DNA of 64,000 nt from Flavobacteriales bacterium (GTDB lineage Bacteria; Bacteroidota; Bacteroidia; Flavobacteriales_D; Parvicellaceae), in contig JAQXDK010000008.1 in assembly GCA_029251405.1 (NCBI GenBank), forward strand, positions 1 through 64,000, given 5' to 3'. Shown here one piece after another: positions 22,979 through 29,475 of this stretch. How positions within the stretch are numbered: the stretch's first letter is position 1; each line of letters starts with the position of its first letter. The notes below the pieces were generated by a model. It saw nothing but the letters and a program-made list of their open reading frames with translations. It was not told the origin of the DNA and made no database searches. The position numbers were made by a program, and so were the translations under genes.

Positions 22979-23062
22979 TTATGATTTTTTAACTAAACTT
23001 ACGAGCTGTTCAGTTTAACAAATCTCAACTGACAAAATGTCGCATATCATGATTTACTTTTG

Positions 23063-23081
23063 TATCTTTGCGTTAAATTTG
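23063..23081 (+). promoter_or_regulatory. Candidate miaB promoter with two overlapping -7 matches
   Basis: TATCTTTG (23063-23070) and TAAATTTG (23074-23081) both match TAnnTTTG and lie 37-55 bases before the miaB start. TATCTTTGCG is a common form of the flavobacterial -7 region. A clear -33 TTTG is not seen. Confidence 0.5.
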
Positions 23082-23117: not shown

Positions 23118-24587
23118 TTGAAAAACAGAGGATTGAATACAACTATCGTTTTGGAAAAGGAAAATCCCCAGATTAATAATCCAAACAAATACAACGGAGA
23201 AGCTCTTGACCATCCATTGATATCAGCGCCAAACACCATTACAAAGAAGTTGTATTTGGAAAGCTATGGATGTCAAATGAATTTCTCGGACAGTGAAATA
23301 GTTGCATCTATCTTAAACGAACAAGGTTTTATAACTACTAAAAATTTTCAAGAATCTGACCTAATCCTTCTTAACACTTGTTCAATTAGAGAAAAAGCAG
23401 AGATCACTGTAAGAACAAGATTAAAATCGTTTAATAAGCTGAAGAGAAAAAATCCGAAATTGATAATTGGCTTATTAGGATGTATGGCCGAGAGAATGAA
23501 AGAAACTCTTTTAGAAGAAGAAAAATTAGTGGATTTAGTTGTTGGACCAGATGCCTACAGAGACTTACCCAATTTAATTCAAGAAGTTGAAGGAGGTCAA
23601 AAAAGTGTAAACGTCTTATTATCTAGAGAGGAAACTTATGCTGACATAAGTCCGGTTAGACTTGACAGCAATGGGGTTTCTGGGTTCATCTCTATTATGA
23701 GAGGATGCGATAATATGTGTTCGTTTTGTGTAGTTCCATTCACCAGAGGTAGAGAAAGAAGTAGAAGCCCACTTACTATTATAGCTGAAGCAAAAGAACT
23801 TTACAAAAACGGATACAAAGAGGTTACTCTTCTTGGCCAAAATGTAGACAGTTATCGATGGAATATTAATAAAAAAGGAACTGTTATTGACCCCAACATT
23901 CCTACTACTAATTTTGCTCAACTGTTAGCAATGGTTGCTCAGGTAGGAAATGATATGAGAATACGTTTTTCTACATCTCATCCAAAAGACATGACCGATG
24001 AGGTAATTCACACGATGAATAAATATGAAAACATTTGCAACTATGTTCATTTACCAGTCCAGTCTGGAAGTAGTAAAATTTTAAAAAAAATGAATCGTGG
24101 CTACACCAAAGAATGGTATTTAGATAGAATCAAATCCATTAGAAACATTATTCCAGATTGCGCGATATCCACTGATATTATAACGGGTTTTTGCGATGAA
24201 AGTGAAGAAGATTTTAATGAGACTTTAAATTTAATGAAGGAAGTTAAATTTGATTTTGCTTACATGTTTTTTTACTCTGAAAGACCTAAGACCCTAGCCG
24301 AAAGAAAATATGAGGACAATGTGCCAGAAGACACGAAAAGAGCTCGCCTACAAAAAGTTATTGACCTACAAAGAAAACACGCTACTGAAAGTAATGAAGC
24401 TTGTATTGGGAAAACCGTAAAGGTTTTAATTGAAAGTACCTCTAAAAAATCTAATTTAGACTTCAGCGGAAGAAATGACGAAAACTGTAAAGTTGTTTTT
24501 CCAAAGGAGAATGCTGTAAAAGGCACATTTGTAAATGTATTAATAGAAAAATGTACATCTGCTACACTAATAGGTAAAATTGTATAA
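23118..24587 (+). CDS. miaB: tRNA-2-methylthio-N6-dimethylallyladenosine synthase MiaB
   Basis: MiaB is a radical SAM enzyme that adds the methylthio group to i6A37 of tRNAs. The auxiliary cluster ligands are Cys52, Cys88 and Cys122, and the radical SAM triad is Cys197, Cys201 and Cys204 in [11 protein letters not shown]. The C-terminal part (about 420-489) is the TRAM domain. The start is a TTG at 23118; the next Met lies within the first cluster motif, so it cannot be the start. A 40-residue N-terminal extension before the UPF0004 domain is common in Bacteroidota. The stop is followed directly by the ATG of the sigma-54 regulator. Confidence 0.95.
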
Positions 24588-25841
24588 ATGAATCTTCAAA
24601 CTGTTAAAAATAGATTTGGTATAATAGGTAATTCTGACGTACTTAATAGAGCTCTAGACGTAGCTGTTCAGGTTGCTCCAACTGACATTACCGTGTTAAT
24701 AACTGGAGAAAGCGGAACTGGTAAAGAGAATATGCCTAAAATCATACATAACTACAGCTCCAGAAAACATCACGAATACATTGCAGTAAATTGTGGAGCC
24801 ATCCCAGAAGGAACTATAGATTCAGAACTTTTTGGTCATGAAAAAGGGGCTTTTACAGGGGCTACTGACAGTAGAAAAGGGTATTTTGAAGTTGCAGATG
24901 GTGGTACTATTTTTTTAGATGAAGTTGCTGAACTTCCTCTACCTACTCAAGTTAGACTTTTAAGAGTTCTAGAAACAGGAGAATACATGAAAGTCGGAGC
25001 ATCAAAAGTTAAAAAAACAGATGTTAGGATAATTGCTGCAACCAACGAAAATGTACAGAAAGCCATACATAATGGGAAATTTAGAGAAGATTTATTCTAT
25101 AGATTAAGTACAGTTCCAATATATCTAGCTCCGTTAAGAGAAAGAAAAGATGATATTCATTTACTTTTTAGAAAATTTTCTGCAGATTTTGCTGAAAAGT
25201 ATAGAATGCCAGGAATTCGACTAAATCCACAAGCTGTAAACCTTTTAGAAAAATATTCTTGGCCCGGTAATATAAGACAACTTAAAAATGTTGCTGAACA
25301 GATTTCAGTAATTGAGGAATCAAGAACCGTAAACGATGAAATTTTAACTAAATATCTTCCAAATAATCACAATCGAAATCTCCCAATGATAATTGATGGG
25401 AAAAAAGAAAACGATTCTTTTTCTGAAAGAGATATTTTATACAAAGTTTTGTTTGAAATGAAGCAAGATGTAGCCGAAATGAAAAGAGTTATAGTAGACT
25501 TGCTCAACAAGAACAACCTTTCTAACAATGAAAAAAATGAACTGATTACAAAACTCAATGTTTCAGAAAATTTTGATACTGACCTAAGCCTTGAAGCACC
25601 TCGTAATAACTCCGTTGAATATGAAGAAAAACCTTTGGAACAAACCATACCTTCTTACAATATTTCTTACCAAGAAAGTATAGAAGTTGAGGAATCCTTA
25701 TCACTTGAGGAAAGAGAAAAGGAATTGATAAAAAAAGCATTGAAAAAACACAATGGAAAACGAAAAAATGCAGCAAAAGAACTAGGGATTTCAGAAAGAA
25801 CATTGTATAGGAAAATTAAAGAATTTGAAGTTTTGAAATAG
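24588..25841 (+). CDS. Sigma-54-dependent enhancer-binding regulator
   Basis: This AAA+ activator remodels sigma-54 RNA polymerase. Walker A is GESGTGKE (40-47), the sigma-54-contacting loop GAFTGA is at 87-92, and Walker B is IFLDE (108-112). The C-terminal Fis-type helix-turn-helix is at about 385-415 (RKNAAKELGISERTLYRKIK). The central domain starts near the N-terminus, so there is no receiver, GAF or PAS domain; activity must be set by level, by partner proteins or by the central linker. The linker (about 270-380) has a charged helical stretch. It follows miaB directly and precedes lptE. Its targets are not known, but a sigma-54-type promoter lies before groES in the same cluster. Confidence 0.93.
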   Translation: MNLQTVKNRFGIIGNSDVLNRALDVAVQVAPTDITVLITGESGTGKENMPKIIHNYSSRKHHEYIAVNCGAIPEGTIDSELFGHEKGAFTGATDSRKGYFEVADGGTIFLDEVAELPLPTQVRLLRVLETGEYMKVGASKVKKTDVRIIAATNENVQKAIHNGKFREDLFYRLSTVPIYLAPLRERKDDIHLLFRKFSADFAEKYRMPGIRLNPQAVNLLEKYSWPGNIRQLKNVAEQISVIEESRTVNDEILTKYLPNNHNRNLPMIIDGKKENDSFSERDILYKVLFEMKQDVAEMKRVIVDLLNKNNLSNNEKNELITKLNVSENFDTDLSLEAPRNNSVEYEEKPLEQTIPSYNISYQESIEVEESLSLEEREKELIKKALKKHNGKRKNAAKELGISERTLYRKIKEFEVLK

Positions 25842-26360
25842 ATGAATTACTTAAAAATAATATCGCTGTCTTTAGTAATTAACTCTTGTGCGCTACCTCA
25901 ATTTAGTTTTAAATCAGGAGGATCAGAAACCAAAGAAATTGATGCAGAAACTGTTCAGATAGATTATTTTATAAATAAAAGTGCAATCGGCGGACCTTTC
26001 TTAGGTGCTTCTTTTACAGAAAGCCTAAGAGATCTAATGCAATCACAAACTAAATTAAATATTGTAGATAATAATGCAGATTTGCAAATCGCTGGAAATA
26101 TTAAAAATTACACCATATCTCCTGTAAACATACAATCAGGAAGTGAAACTGCAGCACAAAATAGATTGAAAATGATTGTTTCAGTTGATACTTATTACAA
26201 AAAAAATGACTCAATTGGGTTAGTCAAATCTCCTTTTAGTGCTTTTGTTGATTACAACGCAAGTACTGATTTTAGTTCCATTGAAGAATCCCTTGTAGAA
26301 GATTTAAACTATCAGATCACACAAGATATTTATGATAAAATATTTGGAGGCGAATGGTAA
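25842..26360 (+). CDS. lptE: LptE-like lipopolysaccharide assembly lipoprotein
   Basis: LptE plugs the LptD barrel and helps insert lipopolysaccharide in the outer membrane. Here the N-terminus is a lipoprotein signal (SLVINSC, Cys16), followed by a small alpha/beta domain with the family pattern of an early strand (TVQIDYFIN), a helix (FTESLRDLMQSQTKLNIVD), the central segment NADLQIAGNIKNYTISPVNI, and a later strand RLKMIVSVDTYY. Length 172 is typical for Bacteroidota LptE. It starts one base after the regulator stop and overlaps the next gene by 7 bases. Confidence 0.85.
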   Translation: MNYLKIISLSLVINSCALPQFSFKSGGSETKEIDAETVQIDYFINKSAIGGPFLGASFTESLRDLMQSQTKLNIVDNNADLQIAGNIKNYTISPVNIQSGSETAAQNRLKMIVSVDTYYKKNDSIGLVKSPFSAFVDYNASTDFSSIEESLVEDLNYQITQDIYDKIFGGEW

Positions 26361-27091
26361 ATCATAATATTAAAAATATTGAAGAATTAATAAATAATCC
26401 TGAAAAAATTAACGATCAGGATTTATCCTATTTTTTTGACCTCACTCTAAAATATCCTGCCTCAAATTTTTGCTTTCTCATTCTAACAAAGATATTACAT
26501 CGTCAAAATAGAATCGGGTTCGAAAAATCACTTAACAGTACATCCCTTAGGTTTGGAGATAGAAAAATCTTGTATGACATTATACATAATCAGAAAAAAG
26601 TTCAGAAGGAAAATACTCCATCTAAAAAAATCATTGAATTTGATAACGACATTAATGAATTAGAAAAAAATATTTACGGAAATTTAATACAAAATCAATT
26701 AATTGATGAAGTTGAATTAAATACATCTCCTTTAAAAAATGAGAACATAAAAAACCACAATTTAAAGCAATTTATGTCGTTTGAAGAATGGTTGACAACT
26801 GCAGAAAACACGAATACATCAAATACAAATATTGATTTAATTATTAAAAACTTAAACGAAAGAAAAATCACAAAAGAGAAAAATAATTTTTACTCTGGAT
26901 CTAAAGCTGCTAAAGAAAGTTTAAAAGATACAAACGAATTGAACACAGAAACACTTGCCGAAATTTATGTCAAACAAGGTAATTATCCTAAGGCAATTAC
27001 AATCTATGAGCAATTGATGTTGTCTAATCCAGAAAAAAAACTTTTCTTTGCAAGCCGAATTAATTATATCAACCAAAAAACACAATTGTAG
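26354..27091 (+). CDS. Hypothetical protein with C-terminal TPR-like repeat
   Basis: No specific family is recognised. The protein is 245 residues, Asn/Lys/Glu rich, has no signal peptide or membrane helix, and is probably cytoplasmic. The last 40 residues (ETLAEIYVKQGNYPKAITIY followed by EQLMLSNP) look like one tetratricopeptide repeat, a protein-binding element. The middle part is low in complexity and likely disordered. Its position between lptE and secG is a usual one for such a gene in Bacteroidota, which suggests an envelope or secretion link without proving it. The ATG overlaps the lptE end by 7 bases. Confidence 0.65.
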   Translation: MVNHNIKNIEELINNPEKINDQDLSYFFDLTLKYPASNFCFLILTKILHRQNRIGFEKSLNSTSLRFGDRKILYDIIHNQKKVQKENTPSKKIIEFDNDINELEKNIYGNLIQNQLIDEVELNTSPLKNENIKNHNLKQFMSFEEWLTTAENTNTSNTNIDLIIKNLNERKITKEKNNFYSGSKAAKESLKDTNELNTETLAEIYVKQGNYPKAITIYEQLMLSNPEKKLFFASRINYINQKTQL

Positions 27092-27093
27092 TT

Positions 27094-27417
27094 ATGGGAA
27101 CTTTATTAATGATTTTATCAACACTTACAGCAATTTTATTAATAGTTGTAGTACTTCTTCAGAATTCTAAAGGTGGAGGTTTGGATTCCTCTTTTGGAAA
27201 TGCAGGCCAACTTGGAGGTGTAGCGCAATCTACTGAAACAATTGAAAAAGCAACTTGGACTTTAGCTGGAATTATGGGACTATTAAGTCTATTAGCAGCC
27301 TTCAACTTTGGAGGAGGTAATAACGAAATTTCAACAGAAATAGACAAAAACGAAGGGGTAAGCTTACCATCTTCTAACGAACCAATAAATATTCCAACTG
27401 ACCTTCCTAATCAGTAA
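27094..27417 (+). CDS. secG: Protein translocase subunit SecG
   Basis: SecG is the small accessory subunit of the SecYEG channel. Two membrane helices are visible (about 3-22 and 52-71), separated by the conserved NSKGGGLDSSFG and AQSTETIEKATW loop. The Asn/Pro-rich tail after residue 75 is the usual variable end. It lies two bases behind the TPR-like gene. The 119-base gap that follows, before groES, contains the sigma-54-like promoter. Confidence 0.95.
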   Translation: MGTLLMILSTLTAILLIVVVLLQNSKGGGLDSSFGNAGQLGGVAQSTETIEKATWTLAGIMGLLSLLAAFNFGGGNNEISTEIDKNEGVSLPSSNEPINIPTDLPNQ

Positions 27418-27418
27418 G

Positions 27419-27462
27419 TGTCAAGATGTCATTTTTTAAAATTTAATTTGAGTCAATTTGAC
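27419..27462. repeat. GTCA/TGAC repeat group upstream of groES
   Basis: Two direct copies of TGTCA (27419-27423 and 27427-27431) are followed by the 11-bp palindrome GTCAATTTGAC (27452-27462). They lie 24-67 bases upstream of the sigma-54-like site and could be binding sites for an activator. Enhancer sites usually lie 80-150 bases up, so the distance is short. Confidence 0.3.
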
Positions 27463-27485: not shown

Positions 27486-27501
27486 TGGCACAAAATGTGC
27501 A
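27486..27501 (+). promoter_or_regulatory. Sigma-54-type -24/-12 promoter candidate before groESL
   Basis: The sequence TGGCACAAAATGTGCA matches the TGGCAC-N5-TTGCA consensus except for G in place of the first T of the -12 half. The GG (27487-27488) and GC (27499-27500) doublets have the required 10-base separation. Transcription would start near 27512, giving a 25-base leader to the groES ATG. The same bases contain a short dyad (GCACA-AAA-TGTGC), so a repressor site is the alternative. No CIRCE element is seen. Confidence 0.6.
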
Positions 27502-27536: not shown

Positions 27537-27815
27537 ATGTCAATAAATGTAAAACCACTTGCTGATAGAGTAATTATTGAACCAGCTCCCGCAGAAGAAA
27601 AAACTGCTGGCGGAATCATAATTCCTGATACAGCAAAAGAGAAACCAAAAGAAGGAAAAGTCATAGCAGCAGGTCCTGGCAAAAAAGATGAACCTGTAAC
27701 TGTTAAAGAAGGTGACACAGTACTATATGGACAATATAGTGGAACTGAAATTAAAGTAGATGGTAACGATTATCTCATAATGAGAGAAAGTGACATTTTT
27801 GCAATTGTTAAATAA
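27537..27815 (+). CDS. groES: Co-chaperonin GroES
   Basis: GroES is the 10-kDa heptameric lid of the GroEL folding chamber. The sequence is 92 residues with the N-terminal [20 protein letters not shown], the mobile loop region [13 protein letters not shown] (residues about 25-37), and the C-terminal [19 protein letters not shown]. It is 16 bases upstream of groEL and transcribed with it. The leader has no clear Shine-Dalgarno sequence, which is usual for AT-rich Bacteroidota. Confidence 0.98.
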
Positions 27816-27819
27816 ATAA

Positions 27820-29475
<1,656 letters not shown>

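Follow-up and report, generated by a model that had tools for sequence, protein, structure and literature searches.

In Flavobacterium psychrophilum, a mapped transcription start with a sigma-54-type motif (SM4) is found before groES-groEL, dnaK, grpE-dnaJ, htpG, clpB and lon, and the activator gene and lptE possess a promoter of their own that is not of the sigma-54 type (SM5) (PMC9723704). The neighboring locus tags given there imply the same gene order, activator-lptE-...-groES-groEL, as in the 64,000-nucleotide stretch of DNA analyzed here in its entirety (the window). Hence, the sigma-54 promoter of groESL is, as such, partly known already from the F. psychrophilum study. Neither an assignment of the activator nor an enhancer dyad is described in the consulted part of it; our locus differs in that its -12 doublet is GC, and we propose for it a protein that may act as the activator, along with phased dyads and a site of autoregulation. 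A computational survey published in 2025 reported that predicted sigma-54 promoters are over-represented at the chaperones of Bacteroidota, GroES and GroEL among them (PMC12316311). These predictions are matrix-based, and the consulted part contains no activator assignment, no dyads and no contrast with CIRCE. The dependence of Bacteroides thetaiotaomicron groES on sigma-54 is also claimed there, with reference 80 of the survey as the source; this reference is a paper on nitrogen recycling by Blattabacterium. As the citation looks misplaced, we did not use this claim as evidence.

Three further systems lend themselves to comparison. The PspF protein of enterobacteria is an activator without a regulatory domain (PMC4987338); the activator encoded in the window is likewise sensorless and its AAA+ domain matches PspF structures, but it differs from the PspF-PspA system in its predicted regulon, in its candidate enhancer sequence and in the long linker that precedes its helix-turn-helix (HTH). 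NorR enhancers have the form GT(N)7AC and occur as multiple sites (PMC4987338), and our locus resembles them in that the proximal dyad of the window, GTCAATTTGAC, fits GT-N7-AC and multiple candidate enhancer sites are present. NorR differs, however, in possessing a nitric-oxide-sensing GAF domain, and the dyad of the class, GNCANNNTGNC, is looser and often lies at less than the customary distance of 80-150 bp from the promoter. Control of a groESL operon by NifA is a feature of Bradyrhizobium groESL3. This operon is transcribed from a known RpoN-dependent promoter (PMC4842269), but it is part of a nitrogen-fixation programme and one of several groESL copies, and not the general chaperonin of a whole class. 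In the accessible literature on sigma-54 and groESL in Bacteroidetes, our search yielded little apart from the F. psychrophilum study and the 2025 survey, and no activator assignment, phased dyad or autoregulatory site of the kind set out below.

The window stems from a marine bacterium of the class Bacteroidia, whose 2.2-Mb genome is 97% complete and distributed over 53 contigs. Its cluster runs in the order miaB, activator, lptE, a TPR gene, secG, groES and groEL (Table 1). The original prediction had described the second of these genes as coding for an enhancer-binding protein with an intact GAFTGA loop and a Fis-type HTH, located three genes upstream of groES, and this description proved accurate, with lptE, the TPR gene and secG in between. 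The closest named relatives of the activator gene derive from metagenome-assembled genomes labelled Bacteroidetes bacterium MED-G20, Flavobacteriales, Crocinitomicaceae and Cryomorphaceae. Elsewhere in the genome (G000:C9:85981-86289), there is another GroES-like frame, a divergent one with 36% identity; many genomes in our survey of the phylum likewise give a weak second match.

Table 1. Coordinates of genes and of predicted regulatory elements in the window.
Feature	Position	Strand	Basis
Candidate autoregulatory dyad GACAAAATGTC	23031..23041	.	Upstream of miaB-activator operon
Candidate sigma-A -7 box TATCTTTG of miaB-activator operon	23063..23070	+	Alternative: TACTTTTG at 23055
miaB, first gene of the cluster	23118..24587	+	Mechanical ORF, TTG start; homologous gene before activator in most linked loci
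Sigma-54 activator (bEBP), sensorless	24588..25841	+	PF00158 AAA+ with GAFTGA, lid, long linker, Fis-type HTH
lptE	25842..26360	+	PF04390
TPR-repeat protein, function unassigned	26354..27091	+	Weak PF13176, under curated cut-off
secG	27094..27417	+	PF03840
Distal candidate activator site, dyad GTCAAGATGTC	27420..27430	.	Start 66 bp upstream of TGG, centre ~-87; genus-conserved
Proximal candidate activator site, dyad GTCAATTTGAC	27452..27462	.	Start 34 bp upstream of TGG, centre ~-55; invariant genus island
Predicted sigma-54 -24/-12 promoter element of groES-groEL, TGGCACAAAATGTGCA	27486..27501	+	Sequence; rarity against shuffles; conservation in genus and class
Predicted groESL transcription start	27512	+	From -24/-12 spacing of GG-N10-GC; 25-nt leader
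groES	27537..27815	+	PF00166
groEL	27832..29475	+	ORF translation; homologs after groES in loci compared

The element TGGCACAAAATGTGCA, situated 51 nt before groES, deviates from TGGCAC-N5-TTGCW by a single mismatch, and its GG (27487-27488) and GC (27499-27500) doublets stand at GG-N10-GC spacing. The coordinates confirmed the -24/-12 spacing given in the original prediction, and its putative start comes to lie 25 nt before the groES ATG as stated there. The pattern TGGCACN6TGCW has two matches in the 64 kb of the window, where shuffled sequences lead one to expect 0.12; the other match, TGGCACATAATCTGCT (120-135), is located within an ORF of 252 amino acids on the opposite strand and has no dyad close by. 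RpoN is encoded once in the genome, and its RpoN box (ARRTVAKYRE) is intact. Two other types of control were considered for groES and rejected. When up to four mismatches are allowed, the CIRCE element, TTAGCACTC-N9-GAGTGCTAA, which the original prediction had failed to see as well, is found neither in the window nor in its relatives nor in any of 40 genomes of the class. A TAnnTTTG promoter, which with a groES start mapped to it had been named at the outset as a finding that would speak against sigma-54, was looked for in the 150 nt before groES, and neither this box nor TAnnTTGY is present there.

Conservation in related genomes strengthens the case for the promoter. In an alignment of sequences from the genus of the window, the region upstream of groES drifts save for three islands, namely the two dyads and the -24/-12 element, and all eight sequences retain TGGCAC. 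Across the class Bacteroidia, TGGCAY is found in 100 of 105 distinct groES upstream regions, the remaining five having atypical sites, and a G at position -13 is kept in 98 of the 100 regions bearing TGGCAY. The base at -12 is A in 61, C in 20 and T in 19 of these 100 regions, with C conserved only in the genus of the window. As judged from this distribution, recognition at -12 in the class would differ from the textbook pattern, since C is not conserved there and A is the commonest base. Hence, when the suggested conservation of GG-N10-GC is followed through the relatives, the GG and the -13 G hold in genus and class alike, while the C at -12 holds in the genus only. These comparisons also bear on the idea that the same bases form a repressor operator instead of a promoter, an option that the original prediction had kept in view and that derives from the short dyad symmetry of the window sequence (TGTGgCACA/TGTGCACA). 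This symmetry is lost outside the genus, but TGGCAY, the -13 G and the GG-N10-G spacing are kept, so that an operator at this position is largely refuted and may be regarded as very improbable. We conclude from the sequence comparisons that positions 27486-27501 represent a real, if predicted, sigma-54 promoter of groES-groEL.

When the analysis is widened to whole genomes, TGGCAYN7G precedes groES in 35 of 40 genomes of the class against 0.07 in shuffles, a contrast whose significance, like that of all shuffle-based figures given below, is overstated by the relatedness of the genomes; CIRCE is found in none of the 40. The other classes of the phylum present the opposite picture, with CIRCE in 15 and TGGCAYN7G in 2 of 20 genomes. 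Among the named genomes in which groES lies downstream of the activator, the site is present in 54 of 54. With the sigma-54 pattern in 35 and CIRCE in none of the 40 genomes, sigma-54 control of groESL, as predicted from these sites, is the norm of the Bacteroidia and stands in place of the CIRCE element seen elsewhere in the phylum. It is therefore not the unusual design that it had initially been taken for, and a sigma-54-type start before groES had already been mapped in F. psychrophilum (PMC9723704). At two loci of another class (L141 in G040 and L152 in G045), groES is preceded by a TGGCAC-type site and CIRCE is absent; at L141, a perfect dyad stands 65 bp farther upstream than the site.

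Two copies of the dyad GNCANNNTGNC precede groES in the window. At the htpG, grpE, clpB and groES promoters, the 60 bp preceding each of 110 sites contain 66 perfect dyads in total as compared to 0.4 in shuffles, whereby the dyad had first been noticed in some of the groES upstream regions, which are part of these data, and before htpG of the same genome. Overall the dyad is rare: class loci adding up to 303,510 nt contain 102 copies, with those in promoters counted. The distances from the start of the dyad to TGG cluster at 24, 34-35, 45, 55, 66, 76 and 87, i.e., one step per helical turn, and yield a Rayleigh R of 0.89 at 10.5 bp (n = 146), a value measured on sites chosen without regard to dyads, although its significance is again overstated by the relatedness of the genomes. 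In many members of the class (e.g., L319, L327 and L349), the distal groES dyad belongs to a strong secG terminator hairpin, TGTCAGAATGTCA...TTCTGACATTTTTT, whose 5' arm it forms. In the genus of the window this hairpin has been lost and the distal dyad kept, which argues that the dyad is retained for its own sake. Loss of the terminator, together with a secG-groES gap of only ~120 nt, would also suit a scenario in which groESL is mainly expressed by read-through from secG or from a sigma-A promoter, with the sigma-54 site playing a minor role. We consider this scenario improbable in view of the missing sigma-A boxes, the strength of purifying selection at the sigma-54 site and the start with a sigma-54-type motif mapped in F. 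psychrophilum (PMC9723704). Under the reading that groESL is expressed from the sigma-54 promoter, the two dyads upstream of its -24/-12 element are likely binding sites of the activator, as suggested by their conservation and position.

The promoters of the miaB-activator operon served as an independent test, for which the dyad pattern had been fixed beforehand. Here, the dyad is found in 56 of 61 promoters, whereas shuffles give 0.6, and at most of them it precedes TAnnTTTG by 28-32 bp and consequently lies over the -33 region. As this is the place where a repressor of a sigma-A promoter would sit, the activator probably represses its own synthesis.

The AAA+ domain of the activator begins at residue 12, leaving no room for an N-terminal sensor domain, and the protein has the Walker A motif, GAFTGA loop, lid and Fis-type HTH of bEBPs. 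Orthologs with 56-67% identity are present in 30 of 30 class genomes tested, in nine of which no activator was seen beside groES; searches outside the class gave weaker matches only (best 43-51%). RpoN is found in 40 of 40 genomes and alone can thus not explain the pattern. The orthologs retain the recognition helix LGIS[EQ]RTLYRK and, with the single exception of L265 (GSFTSA), the loop G[AS][FY]TGA. In the 97% complete genome, we found no RpoN activator other than the linked one that has a DNA-binding domain. The only other full PF00158 protein (L032; G000:C20, 1255-2436, minus strand) consists of a receiver and an AAA+ domain with a GSFTSA loop and has no HTH. About a dozen class genomes have relatives of this length, which in several of these genomes are located ~5-7 kb from grpE.

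This second NtrC-like protein, or an activator missed in a genome that is 97% complete and split into 53 contigs, might drive RpoN at a real sigma-54 promoter, with the dyad belonging to some other regulator, either a stress repressor or a co-activator. The vicinity of its relatives to grpE would be in keeping with such an arrangement. Activators devoid of a DNA-binding domain are known elsewhere, and L032 might consequently drive RpoN even so. Nevertheless, we view this arrangement as unlikely, since L032 lacks a C-terminal DNA-binding domain and has the GSFTSA loop, the missing HTH being the stronger argument because the activator ortholog L265 has the same loop. Furthermore, the dyad retains its face with respect to the -24 box across several turns of the helix and is found again at the operon of the linked activator itself, both of which would be expected of an activator with a site for autoregulation.

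In our opinion, it is thus highly probable that the linked activator binds the dyads, switches on a chaperone regulon together with RpoN, starting from a real sigma-54 promoter of groESL, and represses its own operon. The promoter, the dyads, their conservation and phasing, and the co-occurrence with the activator can be read from the DNA itself. Binding of the activator to the dyads, activation at groES and repression at miaB are what we infer from this arrangement, and they lend themselves to the following regulatory model. RpoN-RNA polymerase would wait at its groESL promoter as a closed complex. The activator would bind to the proximal and distal dyads, which share one face of the helix with respect to the -24 box, and would hydrolyze ATP to open this complex by means of its GAFTGA loop. 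It would also govern htpG and grpE through sites of the same type, and this probably applies to dnaK and clpB as well. The miaB-activator operon would be transcribed from a sigma-A promoter with the dyad over its -33 region, where the activator probably represses itself. As no sensor domain is present, the activity of the protein probably depends on a partner protein or on its own amount, in the way that PspF is controlled by PspA.

Whether this model extends to the entire class, we judge to be evenly balanced: in the Bacteroidia, CIRCE-type control of groESL may have given way to a sigma-54 regulon of chaperone genes in which a single sensorless and self-repressing activator acts through helically phased dyads, with its activity perhaps set by the availability of chaperones. 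If so, the class would gain a testable stress-response regulator with a readable binding code common to chaperone promoters and its own operon, and sigma-54 would run a core housekeeping and stress function instead of nitrogen or motility genes.

Within the genome of the window, the other candidate targets are of varying quality. htpG (L091) has a sigma-54 site with a perfect dyad 34 bp upstream, dnaK (L082) has a site with a weak dyad, grpE a degenerate site with a dyad 23 bp upstream, and clpB a degenerate site with half a dyad only. The weakness of the dnaK dyad and the incomplete one at clpB speak against the model. Scans of this genome with loose sigma-54 patterns gave matches mostly inside ORFs and a modest excess over a reversed-pattern control; consequently, no regulon was predicted from such scans alone. 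At lon (L084; G000:C25:21461), TGGCACACCAATTGA is found 130 nt upstream of the gene with the dyad GACATTATGTC between this site and the ATG, so that the elements follow each other differently than at the other promoters and agree with the model only imperfectly. An intergenic TGGCATGTTATTTGTAA, 57 nt before a gene for a small MORN-like secreted protein (L088; G000:C37:53108), may mark a further sigma-54 target.
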